Shown here piece after piece: positions 1,371 through 9,496 of a stretch of DNA of 64,000 bases. The first letter of the stretch is position 1; each line of letters opens with the position of its first letter. Location of the stretch: NCBI GenBank assembly GCA_016776925.1, contig JADHSL010000002.1, positions 1 to 64,000 on the forward strand, in the 5' to 3' direction. Both the position numbers and the translations under genes were made by a program. Origin of the DNA: Pirellulales bacterium. GTDB taxonomy: Bacteria > Planctomycetota > Planctomycetia > Pirellulales > UBA1268. The notes under the pieces are model-generated. The model made no database searches, was not told the origin of the DNA, and was given only the letters and a program-made list of their open reading frames with translations.

Positions 1371-2846
1371 CTACCAACTCGCTTCCAGCCCCATCCCGCC
1401 TTGATCACCGACTGGGACTGGTACAACTCGCACCTGGAAGCCTGCGAAATGATGCTCTGTCCGGCTGACTGCTAATGAACTTGCCCAGGCAAGGTACCAA
1501 CCCAGGAATGCCTGGGAAGAGTAGTGCGCATCATCATTGATTCGTGAGAAACCAACAAATGTAGAACAGACGTAAAGCGTTCCTTTGGCGAGTGGATTCT
1601 CGACCATATCAGCCGCTGCAAGAAATGGAATTGCCCCCATAAATGAGTGGCCGCTTACCCCATTATTATCTTGAAAAAACTTCCAGTCACTTCCAGAAGG
1701 TGATTCGGTATTCATAGAGCCATTATTGCTTGGACGAGAAGCGCCTGTCGCTAACTGGAGAACGTAGACGGGTGGCCCTCCAACCAAAAATATACGGAGG
1801 CTTCGTGAGCCCCACCCTCCCAAGGCGTCTCCGACCGGCATTCCTTCAAGTGCAACCCCAGCTGCTGCGGCTATGCCAGCAGCTGGCAATAAGTAAATCC
1901 CGTCCCCGATGTCTTTCGTTGCCGAGAAAAAATCTCCTGTTTGCGATCCTGTTATTCCTGTCTGCCAAGCATTTTGCATAGTTGTATCAAAGCCGGTATT
2001 TGCCATCAGTGCTCCCGCGCCAAAAGCAGCAGTGACACACGTAAGATTTTCACAGGAATAAAAATTCTGATAGTCCTGAAAGATCTTATGTCCCGTCCGA
2101 GAAAGCCGCGGAAATCTGCTCCCTGCCCATGGCAATTTTTGGATATTTGGGGAAGAAATAATTTCCGGTGGCGTTGGCAACGAGTAAACGGGATCACTTT
2201 CAAGTTCCATTCTTTGAGCAAGATCAACGGTTGCATCAACTGACGGATGTCCCAGCAAGTTAGTCTCCCAACCTCCAGTAAGGACGACACGTTCAGACAT
2301 AAGACTGGCATCATTCGATGCTAAGGGTTGTGTCTCCACCACCGCATCAACCCAAGCGCCATTAACAGCAGGGAGCACTTGAACAACCACCCGCTGACGT
2401 TGCTGGGGCAAGTGCGGCCAAGAAGCACTCGATCCACCTGTCTGATTACCCTGCTTTGTTAATGACTGTGGCAGCTGCACCCACGCTGACTCAATCCTGC
2501 CGGCCCGAGGGGGCAATGAATTAAAGTCTGGCGGAATAGTCTTGATAACAGGCCAGTCAGCTGCAACTGTCTTGATTGTTTTCTCCCATATCGGATGACC
2601 ATCTTTGGCAGTTAAAAACATTCCATCTGAAGCGGCAGGCAATGAATTGCGAACAGGTGCTCCCAGAGAAGAATCAGGAAATGCCGATTTTTTTTCATCC
2701 GCAGATGATTCAATAGGCAACTGGACCCCAAGCAGGACAGAAAGATAGAAAAGACACCATCGCCAAGAAGGCAATGGGCCAAAACGCAAACAGGGAGGAC
2801 GAAGGAGTTTGATCATTTGTTGATGCGGACTTTCGCAATGACTCAT
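1371..2846 (-). CDS. Exported PAP2-family (phosphatidic acid phosphatase type 2) protein
   Basis: A 491-residue protein with an N-terminal hydrophobic segment (about residues 28-47) ending near SSADEKK, likely a signal peptide, so the body should be periplasmic. Residues to about 270 match no family I recognise. The C-terminal part carries the three PAP2/haloperoxidase phosphatase motifs in order: a basic motif ending ATGASRP, then GVSGHSFMGA, then SRINDDAHYSSQ, with the expected Arg and His residues. Known relatives dephosphorylate lipid phosphates such as undecaprenyl pyrophosphate or phosphatidate; the substrate here cannot be told. The gene is divergent from recQ and convergent with aroB. 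A later ATG (base 2816) would give a tidier signal peptide than the ATG at 2846. Confidence 0.75.
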   Translation of the reverse strand: MSHCESPHQQMIKLLRPPCLRFGPLPSWRWCLFYLSVLLGVQLPIESSADEKKSAFPDSSLGAPVRNSLPAASDGMFLTAKDGHPIWEKTIKTVAADWPVIKTIPPDFNSLPPRAGRIESAWVQLPQSLTKQGNQTGGSSASWPHLPQQRQRVVVQVLPAVNGAWVDAVVETQPLASNDASLMSERVVLTGGWETNLLGHPSVDATVDLAQRMELESDPVYSLPTPPEIISSPNIQKLPWAGSRFPRLSRTGHKIFQDYQNFYSCENLTCVTAAFGAGALMANTGFDTTMQNAWQTGITGSQTGDFFSATKDIGDGIYLLPAAGIAAAAGVALEGMPVGDALGGWGSRSLRIFLVGGPPVYVLQLATGASRPSNNGSMNTESPSGSDWKFFQDNNGVSGHSFMGAIPFLAAADMVENPLAKGTLYVCSTFVGFSRINDDAHYSSQAFLGWYLAWASSLAVSRTEHHFAGFQVRVVPVPVGDQGGMGLEASW

Positions 2847-2983
2847 GTACCAATCAAGACAGATTTCCCTCGTACCCCGCTTTTCGTGCCCCTCAGGAGC
2901 CTCCCCTTCCTGCCCCGCTTTCCTCAGACGACTCCTTTTGTTGCCAAATGCTATTCTGCTGACTGAGAGAAATTGTTCCTACG

Positions 2984-2990
2984 AGGAGGT
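2984..2990 (+). promoter_or_regulatory. Strong Shine-Dalgarno site that fixes the recQ start
   Basis: AGGAGGT lies 9 bases upstream of ATG at 3000. It supports that start over the in-frame TTG at 2973, which lies upstream of the site. Confidence 0.7.
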
Positions 2991-2999
2991 CCGGTATCT

Positions 3000-4892
3000 A
3001 TGCCAAGGAAGGTAAATGAACAAATGCCTCCCTCTCATCCCGTTGGCGGACAGGAACTAACCGATTCAAAAATCCAACAGACACTTCTTCGCTGGTGGGG
3101 CTTCGACACGTTTCGGCCGCTGCAAGCCGAAGCAATCTCTGCTGCCATTCATGGCCGGGACTCTGTTGTTGTACTCCCAACAGGTGGTGGCAAAAGCCTC
3201 TGCTATCAACTACCTCCTTTGCTCAGCCAAACAACCGATATTGTTGTCTCACCACTGGTATCACTTATGAAGGATCAAGTGGACTCACTTGAATCGATTG
3301 GCTACCCAGCAGCAGCGATTCACAGTGGACTCTCTCAGAACGACCGAAGCAGAACGTACCAGAAGCTTCGCAGCGGGAATCTCCGTTTACTTTTCATAGC
3401 ACCCGAAAGGCTTTTCAATTCGAATCTTGTTGAAACACTTTCGCATTTATCAATTCAGCGTTTTGCGATAGATGAAGCCCATTGCATCAGCCAGTGGGGC
3501 CATGATTTCCGTCCCGAGTACCGTCAACTTTCGGCGTTGAGAGATCGCTTCCCTCAGACGAGTTTCCATGCCTACACCGCCACTGCAACACCTCAAGTTA
3601 GAAAAGATATTGCCGAACAACTGCATCTTAAAAATCCAGAAATTCTTGTTGGCACGTTCGACCGACCAAACCTCACCTACCGTGTCATCCAGCGTACTGA
3701 TAGAACAGCACAGATACTCGAAATCCTTGGGCGTCATCCCAAAGAAGCTTCGATTGTGTACTGCATTTCACGGCGCGAGACAGAAAGGCTCGCGAAACAA
3801 CTTACAGCAGCCGGGCTTCTTGCGCATCCATACCATGCTGGGCTTGATGCCAAGAAACGACACAAAACACAAGAAGCTTTTGCAAAGGAAACCCTTGATG
3901 TTGTTGTCGCTACTGTTGCCTTTGGCATGGGCATAGATCGATCAAATGTGAGACTCGTTCTACACACTGGACTTCCAAAGAGCCTTGAAGCCTACCAGCA
4001 AGAAACAGGACGAGCCGGACGTGACGGGCTTGCTGCCGAATGCGTTCTGCTTTATTCGCCGGCCGATGTCTTCAGCTGGGAGGCATTGATTCGACGGGGG
4101 GCGGAATCTTCTGAACTGACTGAGGATGAATCACAGAAACTCATCGACTCGCAGATATTACATCTCCAACGCATGCGGCAGTATGCCCAAGCAGCACGCT
4201 GCCGGCATACTTTTTTATCAGAGCATTTTGGACAATCATACAAACTCTCTAATTGTAAAAACTGTGACATTTGCCTAGGGGAGACAACTAACCTTGCTGA
4301 CAGCACTACGGTTGCTCAGAAAATCATCTCGTGTGTCGCACGGATTGAAGAACGGTTTGGTGTCCGTCACCTTTGCGAAGTGCTTCGTGGCGCACAAACA
4401 GAAGCGGTACAACGAAACGGACACCACCACCTGTCAACATATGGACTACTAAAAAGCTTCGATCAGCGAATGTGTGAAAATCTCGTCCATCAACTCCTTG
4501 ACCAGGAATATCTTTCGAGAAGCCAAAGCGACCGACCGGTTGTCATGCTAAACCAAAAATCTTGGGAAATTCTCCGGAGCCAACGAACCGTCACACTTCT
4601 TGAGCCACGATTAAAGAAAGCAGTACGATCCCGAAAAGAGTCTGATGACTGGAATGGAGTTGACCGGCAACTCTTTGATCACCTTAGACAATGGCGCAGA
4701 AAAATAGCCGATGGACGAGGAAAGCCTGCCTGGACAATTCTCGATGATCGTGCATTGCGTTCAATCGCGCGTGAAAAGCCAGACACACTGGCAACGCTCT
4801 TGCAATGCAAAGGGATTGGCGAAAAGCGATTAGCTGATCATGGAACAGCTATTCTTAAACTTGTAAAACAATGCGACTACGAATCAGCATAA
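3000..4892 (+). CDS. recQ: ATP-dependent DNA helicase RecQ
   Basis: RecQ is a 3'-5' DNA helicase acting in recombination and stalled-fork repair. The 630-residue product has the complete core: FRPLQ (Q-motif region), Walker A TGGGKS (about 61-66), DEAH (about 158-161) followed by CISQWGHDFRPEY, TATATP, and the helicase C-terminal motifs ending QETGRAGRDG. A zinc-binding RQC region with clustered cysteines (CRHTF and CKNCDIC, about 400-430) follows, then a winged-helix region and a C-terminal HRDC-like domain (LLQCKGIGEKRL near the end). Length and architecture are typical of full-length bacterial RecQ. The start is set by the strong ribosome-binding site. The gene converges with the liv operon, with only 17 bases between stop codons. 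Confidence 0.96.
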   Translation: MPRKVNEQMPPSHPVGGQELTDSKIQQTLLRWWGFDTFRPLQAEAISAAIHGRDSVVVLPTGGGKSLCYQLPPLLSQTTDIVVSPLVSLMKDQVDSLESIGYPAAAIHSGLSQNDRSRTYQKLRSGNLRLLFIAPERLFNSNLVETLSHLSIQRFAIDEAHCISQWGHDFRPEYRQLSALRDRFPQTSFHAYTATATPQVRKDIAEQLHLKNPEILVGTFDRPNLTYRVIQRTDRTAQILEILGRHPKEASIVYCISRRETERLAKQLTAAGLLAHPYHAGLDAKKRHKTQEAFAKETLDVVVATVAFGMGIDRSNVRLVLHTGLPKSLEAYQQETGRAGRDGLAAECVLLYSPADVFSWEALIRRGAESSELTEDESQKLIDSQILHLQRMRQYAQAARCRHTFLSEHFGQSYKLSNCKNCDICLGETTNLADSTTVAQKIISCVARIEERFGVRHLCEVLRGAQTEAVQRNGHHHLSTYGLLKSFDQRMCENLVHQLLDQEYLSRSQSDRPVVMLNQKSWEILRSQRTVTLLEPRLKKAVRSRKESDDWNGVDRQLFDHLRQWRRKIADGRGKPAWTILDDRALRSIAREKPDTLATLLQCKGIGEKRLADHGTAILKLVKQCDYESA

Positions 4893-4909
4893 ATGGGTAT
4901 CGATCCCAT
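4893..4909. terminator. Palindrome filling the recQ/livG-like gap
   Basis: The whole 17-base gap between the two convergent stop codons is the palindrome ATGGGTATCGATCCCAT: a 5-bp stem with a 7-nt loop that itself contains the self-complementary ATCGAT. It may act as a bidirectional terminator, but neither side has a U-tract. Confidence 0.3.
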
Positions 4910-6154
4910 CTAGTGCGGTGAAAGATGCACTGTACGATCACAGATCAGCGCAACCGGATCGTTTCCTGCCGAGGTCACGACAAGCGTCAACACTCCTTTA
5001 CAGACGTCCTTCAGGATGCCTGCAAGCGCATGCTGCTGCTGAGTGTTCATACCGTCCGCTGGTTCGTCAATGAGAAGAATCCGAGGATCCATAGCCAGAC
5101 CGCGAGCAATTCCCAAACAACGTTGCTCGTAACGTGTCAGATCTGAAGCAAACGAGAATGATTGATCGATCAGTCCCACTGACCGAATGAGTTCTTCGGT
5201 CCGCTCAATACAGTTCGCTTTATTAACATGTGGCCACCATGCTGAAGATTTTCGATAAATACCTTGCTCTACCGTAACAAGTATATTTTCAAACACTGTC
5301 ATCGCAGGAAAGTTTCTGGGAGATCGAAAGGTGCGGGCCACTCCAGCTCGAGCAGCAACCTCTGGCGAACGTCTCCCTCGCTGCCAGATTGCCAGCGACA
5401 TTCCAACTCCAAGAAATAAACCACAAATAAAAGCAGACCAACCACGAAAACGAATTCGACGTTTCCCGGCTGCCAACCGGTCAAGAGTCGTTTCATCCAA
5501 TAGTAGCTCGCGTTGCGGTTCATTCGCATCGCCCACTAAATCAGTTATGTCGGGAACAACACCCGGACCAGTTCGCCGAGCAGTCACTGCTGCTTGCATT
5601 TGATTTCGTAACTCTCGGGCTTCGGAAAGATCGCGACGTACCGCAAGAACTTCACGTCCATCTGCTGTGACAATGCGCCAATTACCGGCCAGTCGGTCAA
5701 TAGCCAACTCCGCGCGAAAATAACTACGAAGTCGTCTCCCGAAGTTTGCGGGCGTAAATGGCTCGTCGACTACAAGACCCCGCTTTACAACAGCCAGCCA
5801 CAATCGATCGATATCTACCGCTGCTGCCGCACATAACAAACCAACAAGAATTCCTGTAAACAGAACACCCCAGAATGTTTTCGCAGAGAACCCCTGCTTC
5901 AATCGACGTCCATCCAATCGGACTGAACCGGAAGATGCTGACCGTAGCCCACAGATAGCATCGAGAAGAGCAGCTTTCGACCCTCTTCCCGAATCTATAA
6001 TGGCAACGCTACTACCTGCTGACACATCGAGCTCTAGTTCATCGATGAGTGGAATCCCACCTGATTGAACCGTAAGTCGATCAATACTCAGAAGCGGAAT
6101 ATCTGGTGAGAGCACCGCACCCTCGCTCACTTTTGTATTTTCTCGATGAGTCAT
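4910..6154 (-). CDS. LivG-like ABC protein with degenerate ATPase motifs and a membrane insert
   Basis: Last gene of a Liv-type (branched-chain amino acid/urea/amide) ABC transporter operon; its ATG overlaps the livM stop (ATGA) and has an AGGAG site. The 414-residue product is a LivG homologue split by an insert. Residues 20-87 match the start of the nucleotide-binding domain, and 263-414 resume at GVARTFRSPRNFPAMTVFEN, which lines up with the LivG Q-loop region. Between them lie about 175 extra residues: a membrane segment (about 93-115), about 120 mostly polar residues, and a second membrane segment (about 238-257). Motifs are damaged. Walker A reads DSGRGSKAALL (Lys kept, glycines and Ser/Thr lost), the Q-loop Gln is Arg, the signature reads LTRYEQ where LivG has LxYGxQ, and the switch His is absent (VVTSAGND). 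Only Walker B (RILLIDEPADGMN) is intact. I infer a pseudo-ATPase; transport may need an ATPase encoded elsewhere. Confidence 0.8.
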   Translation of the reverse strand: MTHRENTKVSEGAVLSPDIPLLSIDRLTVQSGGIPLIDELELDVSAGSSVAIIDSGRGSKAALLDAICGLRSASSGSVRLDGRRLKQGFSAKTFWGVLFTGILVGLLCAAAAVDIDRLWLAVVKRGLVVDEPFTPANFGRRLRSYFRAELAIDRLAGNWRIVTADGREVLAVRRDLSEARELRNQMQAAVTARRTGPGVVPDITDLVGDANEPQRELLLDETTLDRLAAGKRRIRFRGWSAFICGLFLGVGMSLAIWQRGRRSPEVAARAGVARTFRSPRNFPAMTVFENILVTVEQGIYRKSSAWWPHVNKANCIERTEELIRSVGLIDQSFSFASDLTRYEQRCLGIARGLAMDPRILLIDEPADGMNTQQQHALAGILKDVCKGVLTLVVTSAGNDPVALICDRTVHLSPH

Positions 6155-7233
6155 TGCTTTGACTCCTGGAATTCAGCAGCAAAACGTCGTGATGGAATAA
6201 GTCCTATGGGACGAAATCGCATCACAACGATTAACGCTATGCCTACAAGGGCTAATCGCCAACTTCCAAGCGTAAAGAGGCTGACATCAAATACCTGCCC
6301 CTGAATGCGTTGCATCCAGGAATCGACCGACGGAATCACAACGATGTCAAAACCAAACAAGATTGTGACTCCGACAAGTGTTCCTGGGATACTACCAAGG
6401 CCACCTATTATGACGGCGCAAAGAATCGCAACTGAGCGATTAAAGCCAAAAGCATTTGGATCTCCGGTAGTACCGATACTTGCAACAGACAGGCAGCCGG
6501 CAAGTCCGGCTATCGCTGCAGCTATTGTGAAAGCCGAAAGCCGAACTTTCGTTGCAGAAATACCTATTGTCGCTGCAGCAAGTGGCTCCTCGCGAACAGC
6601 AATCCAGGCCCTACCAAGTGCCGATTTTTCAAGAACCCGTACAAGCAGCACCACAACAAAGAGCGCAATGAGCGATAAGTAGTAGAACCAACGTGAATCA
6701 ACAACGAACTCTCTGCCGAGATCTATCCCCGTAACAAATATTCCAGATCCTGGTGGCGGAATCGGACCAAGCCCCTGTGTACCACCTGTTACGTTTTCAA
6801 GATTCAGAAATAAAACACGAACGACTTCACCAAAACCAAGAGTAACAATAGCAAGGTACTCACCTCGAAGACGCAACGTTGGTGAGCCGAGTAACGTTCC
6901 TATTGCGGCAGTCAGACCAACACTGACAAAAACTGCCGGGAGAAAGCCTATCTCCAAGGGATTCATTGGAACGGTGAGGATTGCAAGAAAGAGACCGCCT
7001 AAGCCAAAAAATGATGCAATTCCCAGGTGGAGAAATCCCGTGAAGCCAACCATGACGTTGAGACCAAGAGCCGCTATGCAGATTATTAAGACTGATGTCA
7101 TCTGTCCGCCCAGCCCCCCGGCCAATGCCGGGTAGAACCATGGCGCAAGGGCTAGCATTGTGAAAACTGGTATCTCCCAGTTTTTCTTGGACCACTTCAC
7201 GAAATGAGATAAGGAGGGCCATTGAATTTTCAT
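6151..7233 (-). CDS. livM: Liv-type ABC transporter permease LivM
   Basis: Inner-membrane permease subunit, 360 residues from MKIQWPSLSH. It carries the LivM hallmarks ALGLNVMVGFTGFLHLG near the first segments and LRLRGEYLAIVTLGFGEV, GGTQGLGPIP and GGLGSIPGTLVG further on, with about nine to ten hydrophobic segments. The start at 7233 overlaps the livH stop as ATGA and has a strong ribosome-binding site (GAGGAGG), so the longer frame reaching 7329 is not needed. It pairs with LivH as the transmembrane channel; the substrate is probably a branched-chain amino acid, amide or urea-like compound, and the sequence alone does not decide. Translationally coupled to livH and to the livG-like gene. 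Confidence 0.9.
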   Translation of the reverse strand: MKIQWPSLSHFVKWSKKNWEIPVFTMLALAPWFYPALAGGLGGQMTSVLIICIAALGLNVMVGFTGFLHLGIASFFGLGGLFLAILTVPMNPLEIGFLPAVFVSVGLTAAIGTLLGSPTLRLRGEYLAIVTLGFGEVVRVLFLNLENVTGGTQGLGPIPPPGSGIFVTGIDLGREFVVDSRWFYYLSLIALFVVVLLVRVLEKSALGRAWIAVREEPLAAATIGISATKVRLSAFTIAAAIAGLAGCLSVASIGTTGDPNAFGFNRSVAILCAVIIGGLGSIPGTLVGVTILFGFDIVVIPSVDSWMQRIQGQVFDVSLFTLGSWRLALVGIALIVVMRFRPIGLIPSRRFAAEFQESKQ

Positions 7234-8147
7234 CGCTGTCCTCCTCGTGTTTTTGATTTCCCAAAGATCCCTTGCGGGCGAAACGCAAGAAAAATAATGA
7301 GCACAAGAAAGACCGACGCGATAGCCCAACGAGGGCCAAGAAAGGCCACCGAAATGGCACGAATTAATCCGACTATAAGTCCACCAACTATTGCACCAGG
7401 CACGCTCCCAATACCACCAAGCACTGCTGCAGTAAGAGCATACAAACCCATCTGATGCCCCATCTGATAGTTAATCGTCGTTGCATGAACCCCTGCGGCT
7501 ACACTCGCAACACCACCGAGAAAGCCACTTAGAAAAAATGTTGCGATAACAAGTTTCCCTGCTTCCCCTGAACGAGCTGTCACACGGGTGATTGCAGCAA
7601 TGGAACGCAACGATCTTCCAAAACGAGTTTGACGAAGAAGAACGTAAAGGCAAAGAACGGCTGGCACGACGATGACAAGCACCAGAAGATCAGCCATCGC
7701 AATGGAAAATCCACCAACTGAACGTGTGGTTTCCAGGAAAATCTCAGGAAATGCACGATCAGTCGGACCGATCCAAATAAGACCCACATTCATGAGTACA
7801 AACGAAACACCGATTGTTGAAACGAGGGGAGATAGAGGAGGAGCATTTCGCAGCGGACGATAGACAAACTGATCAATACAAATATTCAGACAGCCACAAA
7901 ACAGTCCACTACACGCAGCAGCTAAAACTACTACTAGACAACCAGTCAGCGGGTCGACCGGAACTGGCACAAGGAATGACAAGATCGCAAGTGACAGGCA
8001 GCCACCAAGCATGACTACATCCCCATGGGCGAAGTGGATGAGCCCAACGGTTCCGTACACCAACGTATATCCAACAGCAATCAGCCCCAGAAATCCACCA
8101 CTTGTGATTCCGATACCACATTGCTGAAGAAAGGATGCTACGTCCAC
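7230..8147 (-). CDS. livH: Liv-type ABC transporter permease LivH
   Basis: Inner-membrane permease, 305 residues with about eight hydrophobic segments. Family motifs include GITSGGFLGLIAVGYTLVYG at the N-terminus, LIHFAHGDVVMLGG, YRPLRNAPPLSPLVSTIG and the C-terminal TAAVLGGIGSVPGAIVGG, which is the cytoplasmic coupling region of LivH/LivM permeases. The start is GTG at 8147; no in-frame ATG lies near and no Shine-Dalgarno site is visible. It sits 49 bases after livK and overlaps livM by four bases, so the permeases are co-translated. Confidence 0.92.
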   Translation of the reverse strand: MDVASFLQQCGIGITSGGFLGLIAVGYTLVYGTVGLIHFAHGDVVMLGGCLSLAILSFLVPVPVDPLTGCLVVVLAAACSGLFCGCLNICIDQFVYRPLRNAPPLSPLVSTIGVSFVLMNVGLIWIGPTDRAFPEIFLETTRSVGGFSIAMADLLVLVIVVPAVLCLYVLLRQTRFGRSLRSIAAITRVTARSGEAGKLVIATFFLSGFLGGVASVAAGVHATTINYQMGHQMGLYALTAAVLGGIGSVPGAIVGGLIVGLIRAISVAFLGPRWAIASVFLVLIIFLAFRPQGIFGKSKTRGGQR

Positions 8148-8196: not shown

Positions 8197-9462
8197 TTAT
8201 CTGCTGCCGTTCTTTTTGCCTATGCCAGCAGTTGACATGACTTCCTCATGCACAAACTCACCACCCCGAACAACACTCACAGACACCTCCTGAAGTGTCG
8301 TATCCCCATTTGCATCAATACCCCATTGGCCAAGCACACCATCGTCTACCTGGCTTGCAAAAGCCGATTCTACAATAGCTCGACGATCTTTCACCCCAAC
8401 ATCAGCAATAGCTCGAATCACGAGCCTCGCCGCCTCATAACCATGAATGGCTGCGTTGCTTGGGCATGTCCCATATTTTTGCCGATAGCGAAGAAACAAC
8501 AATTTTTCGTTGCAATCTGCCTGCTCTGGTGACAACCCTGCAGATGTGGCAAAACACCGACCCTCAAGAGAAGCCGCGCCTGCTGCTTCAAGGAATGCTT
8601 TGGTGCGACATCCATCCGAAACCAACAGGATTGCCTCGCTCTCAGCTGACACAAGATCACGTGCGAGTTGTCCACCTTTGGTTCGTGCACTACCACCAAA
8701 GTAGATAAGGTCTGGATCAGCACTCATAACGGACCCTACAAACGATTTAAACTCCGCTGCCTGTGGATCAATCGAGACGTGCTCAAGAACTGCCATGCCT
8801 TGCTCACGACACCGATCAGCGAACAAAGAGGCCACACCTCGCCCGTAAACACCAGCATCATCAATGACGAAAACTCGACGCACTCCACGCTCGAATGCCC
8901 AATCTGCAGCAAGTGGACCTTGAAGGTCATCGGCCGGGACAACTCGGATATAATTTAATTTGCCAGACGGCCGATAAACGTTTGGCTCTCCAGGAAGACC
9001 AAGTCCTGGCTTGGTCAATCCAACGGCAGTATTCGCTGGAGATACCATCAGCAAATCCGCATAGTTGAGAATCGGCATTGATACTCGGGCTGCTCCAGAG
9101 TTCAAGGTACCTATATACGCCATTACGTTGGGATCCTGCACAGCCATCCGAGCATTGGCTGCCTCGCCCTCACTCGTCCACCGGCCAGACGCTGCTGCAC
9201 TGTTATCAAGATCACGATATTCCAGAGTAAACCGCCCTGCTTTTTCCTTCACCTCATCAATTGCAAGCCGAATGCCTCGAACAACCTCATCACTTACCTG
9301 TCTGGAGACACCTGTACGCGGCAGGCTCGAAACGAGACACACCCGATTGGATTCTATTTTTTGACAACCGCAAGCATTCAGTCCAATCGTTAGGCAAACT
9401 ACGACACTCCATGCCAGCCTAAACGGTGGTGGATTCTGCGGACAAAACCAATTACTTCTCAT
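8197..9462 (-). CDS. livK: Liv-type periplasmic substrate-binding lipoprotein
   Basis: Ligand-binding component (type I periplasmic binding protein fold, leucine/amide-binding family) for the downstream permeases. The 421-residue product starts MRSNWFCPQN, has one hydrophobic segment and a lipobox (LNAC), so it is probably a lipoprotein. Recognisable pieces are PRTGVSRQVSDEVVRGIRLA, AYIGTLNSGAARVSMPILNY, RVFVIDDAGVYGRG and IHGYEAARLVIRAI. ATG at 9462 has a GAGG site; a frame extension to 9489 adds only nine residues. First of four liv genes, 34 bases after rlmKL. The ligand cannot be assigned from sequence. Confidence 0.88.
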   Translation of the reverse strand: MRSNWFCPQNPPPFRLAWSVVVCLTIGLNACGCQKIESNRVCLVSSLPRTGVSRQVSDEVVRGIRLAIDEVKEKAGRFTLEYRDLDNSAAASGRWTSEGEAANARMAVQDPNVMAYIGTLNSGAARVSMPILNYADLLMVSPANTAVGLTKPGLGLPGEPNVYRPSGKLNYIRVVPADDLQGPLAADWAFERGVRRVFVIDDAGVYGRGVASLFADRCREQGMAVLEHVSIDPQAAEFKSFVGSVMSADPDLIYFGGSARTKGGQLARDLVSAESEAILLVSDGCRTKAFLEAAGAASLEGRCFATSAGLSPEQADCNEKLLFLRYRQKYGTCPSNAAIHGYEAARLVIRAIADVGVKDRRAIVESAFASQVDDGVLGQWGIDANGDTTLQEVSVSVVRGGEFVHEEVMSTAGIGKKNGSR

Positions 9463-9496
9463 GATTTCGCCTCTTCGTGCAGTCACCAAAAAACTC

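Follow-up and report, generated by a model that had tools for sequence, protein, structure and literature searches.

A LIV-type ABC importer operon that appears to have lost its ATPase motor in one genus of Pirellulales

It is the ATPases that define ABC importers, and those of the LIV-I/HAAT type (LivJHMGF) require two ATPase subunits, LivG and LivF. In heterodimeric ABC exporters with a degenerate site, for example TM287/288, it is the canonical second site that powers the pump. Solitary ECF S-components, BioY and BtuM, transport without an ATPase module (PMC6072759, PMC11109136), and MsmX is a multitask ATPase that serves several sugar importers (PMC7658222). The pair of ATPases required by LIV-I/HAAT importers is not found in the locus analyzed here, which lies on a 64,000-nucleotide stretch of DNA from a Pirellulales bacterium (the window): livF is absent and the motifs of LivG are ruined. 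Literature searches returned no description of a motorless LIV operon with an insert-bearing LivG of this kind, here denoted LivG*.

The window is part of a 3.16 Mb genome (G000) of genus g1, family f1; the genus comprises nine species including that of the window. Its minus strand carries the operon livJ-livH-livM-livG*, in which Pfam family matches identify a LIV-type substrate-binding protein and two permeases. The product of livJ (8197..9489) is a probable lipoprotein of the LIV type with a Peripla_BP_6 match and a conserved core, livH (7230..8147) and livM (6151..7233) encode the BPD_transp_2 permeases, and livG* (4910..6154), assigned from its orthologues in the genus, encodes a 414-aa pseudo-ATPase, a LivG homologue with a two-helix membrane insert. 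The intact frame, ribosome-binding site and ATGA coupling originally described for livG* are all seen: the gene starts with ATG, AGGAG precedes it, and it overlaps livM at an ATGA. Since eight other g1 species carry the gene without any internal stop (two of the eight copies are partial or split), chance or an assembly artefact can be ruled out as its source, and the assembly error or frameshift in the window that would have undone the original prediction was not encountered. One of the g1 loci (L058) is on a contig, WLWP01000019.1, filed under a Pseudomonadales MAG; it carries the Pirellulales operon with 91-97% identity and conserved gene order, and is probably a mis-binned planctomycete contig.

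It is clear from alignment to intact relatives that the ATP site of LivG* is ruined. The nucleotide-binding domain (NBD) is encoded in two parts on the minus strand, residues 18-90 (5885..6103) and residues 263-414 (4913..5368), the latter without the usual LivG C-terminal tail of about 25 residues. Walker A reads DSGRGSKAA for GPNGAGKTT (residues 54-62, 5969..5995), the Q-loop RTFRSPR for RTFQNIR (TFRSPR being residues 275-280; 5315..5335), the signature LTRYEQ for LPYGDQ (residues 339-344, 5123..5140) and the switch VTSAGN for LIEHHM (4961..4978), all as first read. The accompanying statement that Walker B remains holds for the window (LLIDEP, 5060..5077), but not across the genus, where L058 has LLIAEP and L064 has LLADDP. 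The fold is nevertheless that of an ABC NBD: an AlphaFold2 model (pLDDT 78) keeps it and matches many NBDs in the PDB, and the PF00005 score of 44.5 bits exceeds the cut-off of 25, although it is the weakest of the 37 PF00005 matches in the genome. Against the LivG equivalog NF008449 the protein scores 82.5 bits, below the curated cut-off of 362. LivG* thus has the fold and family score of an ABC NBD, but not its Walker A, Q-loop, signature and switch residues, which supports the idea of a membrane-anchored pseudo-ATPase.

The second ATPase gene is missing as well, a point that the first description does not mention. In sister genera the gene order is livJ-livH-livM-livG-livF-recQ, with recQ usually convergent, whereas on every g1 contig that spans the site livG* is followed directly by recQ. 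In the window only 17 bp (4893..4909) separate livG* from the convergent recQ (2973..4892, plus strand), which lies outside the system and serves as syntenic anchor; the conserved neighbour of recQ in g1 (window 1371-2846, minus strand) has a SGHSFMGAIPFL stretch that by eye resembles PAP2-type phosphatases. No livF is present in any of the operon-holding g1 genomes. Sister LivF as query gave matches of 1e-103 to 1e-146 in sisters, but only 33% identity and about 1e-35 in g1, the best match in the genome of the window being an LptB-like protein at 33%. A move of livF to another genome site was rejected, as this search of the g1 genomes found no close LivF relative elsewhere, and a search for a second LivG with intact sister LivG matched LivG* only. 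Judged by these comparisons, the deletion of livF accompanies the ruin of the ATPase in g1 only. A separate observation from the same genome is that an LptB-like ATPase (G000:C67:11374-12075, L054) adjoins a 611-aa protein that by eye is signal-peptidase-I-like with a large insertion.

Absence of both ATPases from the operon raises the possibility that a multitask-type ABC ATPase encoded elsewhere docks on LivHM, with LivG* as the structural or regulatory half. The genome holds 36 other ABC ATPase domains that could in principle power LivHM, a counterpoint to any motorless reading; multitask ATPases are known (PMC7658222), and LivJ, LivH and LivM are strongly constrained (see below). No LivF- or LivG-type ATPase was found outside the operon, however, and the multitask ATPases described serve sugar importers, another class. 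The docking surfaces of the permeases speak on both sides. What we take to be their coupling helices, from knowledge of the BPD_transp_2 permease family and not from structure, were located by alignment. The presumed helix of LivM, IAVREEPLAAATIGIS (6556-6603, minus strand), is kept (VREEPLAAATIGIS in g1 vs VREDELAASAMGIS in sisters), as a borrowed motor would lead one to expect. That of LivH (7557-7607, minus strand), the presumed dock of LivF, is altered, with RSIAAITRVTARSG-EAG for RAVSQDPTAAALVGVDVD (SIAAITRVTARSG-E in g1 vs AVSQDPTAAALVGVD in sisters) and a one-residue deletion in 9/9 g1 sequences compared. It ranks joint first when the conserved stretches of LivH are compared for change; relative to the overall divergence of LivH (8/14 vs 71/217, Fisher p = 0.08) the change is not significant, and the excess is only suggestive. 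The pattern of the two helices would fit a LivM:LivG and LivH:LivF pairing in which the LivF dock was lost after livF. We consider an ATPase recruited from elsewhere the main rival to our preferred reading, and less probable than it. The suggestion that LivG* is a structural partner for a separate ATPase finds no support, given the deletion of livF in g1 only, the lack of any close LivF match elsewhere in these genomes and the altered presumed dock on LivH.

The insert itself agrees well with the first description of two hydrophobic segments around about 120 residues. Residues 91-262 (5369..5884, minus strand), delimited by alignment, model and hydrophobicity, form a membrane helix (residues 91-112, 5819..5884), a presumed periplasmic ectodomain of about 120 residues and a second membrane helix (residues 232-259, 5378..5461); the 19-residue Kyte-Doolittle means are 2.33 at residue 97 and 1.79 at residue 238. 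The ectodomain gave no match in Pfam, PDB sequences or PDB folds, and a model of the ectodomain by itself was of low confidence (pLDDT 69).

A search for homologues with the same insert and motif losses, proposed along with the original prediction, gave a divided answer, since the insert is widespread in relatives and the motif ruin is genus-wide in g1, with intact motifs outside. Almost all f1 genera have a LivG with the same insert, 45-51% identical overall to the window protein, and in these sisters GPNGAGKTT, RTFQNIR, LPYGDQR, LLLDEPAAGMNP and LIEHHM are intact. Dozens of related Pirellulales LivG proteins combine the insert with perfect ATPase motifs, and their loci have livF. A scan of named genomes gave 63 loci, nearly all from Pirellulales or other Planctomycetota MAGs, and among the complete loci outside g1 the motifs were intact with the exceptions of L066 and the N-interrupted L113. 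The insert occurs in intact LivG ATPases of f1 and of other Planctomycetota; it is therefore ancestral, and the loss of the ATPase is a later event confined to g1. This rules out motif loss and insert gain as a single event, as had been supposed.

Among Planctomycetota LivG proteins the ectodomain has about 30 residues at its shortest and about 280 at its longest. In two intact-motif LivG proteins from distant orders or families (L122 and L123, genomes G288 and G397) there is a bare two-helix hairpin with a loop of about 30 residues, which may be the insert in its simplest form, and relatives in family f103 have the hairpin with almost no ectodomain. At the other end, L121 (G317:C639) has, between the two membrane helices, an ectodomain of about 280 residues that seems to be built of repeated GKW..DG..VL-like units. 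Two genomes of genus g6, also of family f1 (G014 and G023, 93-94% complete), gave no match to LivM or to an insert-bearing LivG, and the whole LIV operon appears to have been lost in that genus.

One locus outside g1, the L066 exception, may represent an intermediate. In this Caspian Sea MAG Walker A is intact in both LivG and LivF, but the signature of each is damaged: LivG has LSLAGRR, and also VTGDSI, and LivF has SAAEQ in place of SGGEQ. In a tree of LivJ, LivH and LivM, L066 is sister to g1 (SH-aLRT 94; g1 support 100), with the qualification that the tree carried a long-branch warning and that L066 is a single low-coverage contig. By these features L066 looks transitional between the powered and the motorless operon.

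Pairwise Nei-Gojobori dN/dS values, another proposed check, were calculated for close g1 species and for sister pairs, and all parts were far below 1. Within g1 the insert gave 0.03-0.09, LivJ 0.07-0.08, LivH 0.03-0.09 and LivM 0.07-0.10, with RecQ at 0.05-0.25 (mostly 0.05-0.09) and Trm at 0.10-0.11; the whole NBD of close species gave 0.02-0.22 and its C-terminal part as much as 0.38. Between sisters the NBD (0.03-0.09) mostly did not exceed the insert (0.05-0.17), and because of these ranges the order of constraint between NBD and insert is inverted in g1. The mean g1-to-sister distance divided by the sister-to-sister distance was background-like for the insert (1.78), RecQ (1.74) and Trm (1.69), and raised for LivJ (3.59), LivM (4.40), LivH (5.09) and the LivG NBD (5.54). 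Base composition is an unlikely cause of this acceleration, because L063, L064 and L036 have the high G+C of the sisters and RecQ and Trm are not accelerated. Of columns invariant in sisters, g1 has lost 17/90 in the insert and 81/144 in the NBD (p = 1.4e-8). Loss of motif columns (20/33) was not more frequent than loss elsewhere in the NBD (61/111, p = 0.69), which gives no support to a targeted loss of ATP-site residues; therefore it appears as if the NBD was released as a whole and the insert was not, a reading of rates that is no proof of function.

Such a release could also be the mark of slow decay, in which the importer no longer functions and what is left of the operon is a set of relics at a late stage. 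The deleted livF, the fast divergence of the NBD, the acceleration of LivJ, LivH and LivM on the stem branch and the lack of any such system in g6 would all agree with it. However, the operon shows neither the neutral evolution nor the broken frames of pseudogenes: frames are intact across g1, LivJ, LivH and LivM are comparable to RecQ and Trm, and the insert evolves at the rate of the neighbouring genes. Because dN/dS is far below 1 throughout, decay is already disfavoured and we regard it as highly improbable, in line with the initial view that livG* is not a case of simple decay. The steady rate of the insert could alternatively mean that the ectodomain is the working part in sisters and g1 alike, for example as an envelope scaffold or sensor, and that NBD and permeases are now a mere carrier. 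The insert is indeed old and widespread, and no other part stayed at the background rate during the transition. But a carrier would not need LivH, LivM and the conserved core of LivJ to be constrained like housekeeping genes, and the f103 hairpins manage with almost no ectodomain, so that we find this rather improbable.

Collectively, the comparisons show, at the level of sequence, that in g1 livF was lost from the operon and the ATP-site motifs from livG, while the remaining proteins and the old insert stayed under purifying selection. The explanation we prefer is that livJ-livH-livM-livG* is a branched-chain-amino-acid-type ABC importer whose motor was lost within a single genus of Pirellulales. 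LivG* would still use its retained NBD fold to dock on LivM and would hold the membrane-anchored ectodomain beside LivHM, and LivJ, LivHM and LivG* would work without an ATPase of their own, as an ATP-independent, binding-protein-dependent facilitator or as a solute receptor. That a de-energised LIV importer has been retained as such an ATP-independent binding-protein/permease complex has, in our estimate, slightly better than an even chance of being right. More tentatively, and with somewhat less than even confidence, we suggest that a canonical importer may have become an ATP-free receptor or facilitator in g1 whose pseudo-ATPase is a membrane-anchored scaffold presenting a novel ectodomain. 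If true, this would be a natural experiment on how an active pump turns into a passive carrier or a receptor, for which close powered relatives and what looks like an intermediate are still extant. Membrane-inserted LivG subunits in planctomycetes are in themselves a class not described before.

Among known systems, exporters of the TM287/288 type resemble LivG* in having one NBD with ruined catalytic residues, but they have a canonical second site, and there is no second ATPase in the g1 operon. Importers served by MsmX resemble the g1 system in that their operon lacks an NBD gene of its own; unlike g1, they carry no pseudo-NBD and rely on a sugar-type ATPase that is shared (PMC7658222). The intact insert-bearing LivG proteins of other Pirellulales and Planctomycetota share the position of the two-helix insert and the gene order, and differ in having all ATPase motifs, livF and an ectodomain of variable length. 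With the LIV-I/HAAT importer the g1 operon shares livJ-livH-livM-livG, with substrate-binding protein, both permeases and NBD fold matched, and synteny shows that it descends directly from an operon of that type; it departs from it in the absence of livF, of the ATP-site motifs and of the C-terminal tail, in the altered presumed coupling helix of LivH and in the membrane insert of LivG. Functionally, the nearest precedents are solitary BioY and BtuM, in which the membrane part of an ABC-type importer is likewise kept and works without the ATPase module, as we infer for the function of the g1 operon, although they have an unrelated fold, no substrate-binding protein and no retained pseudo-NBD.
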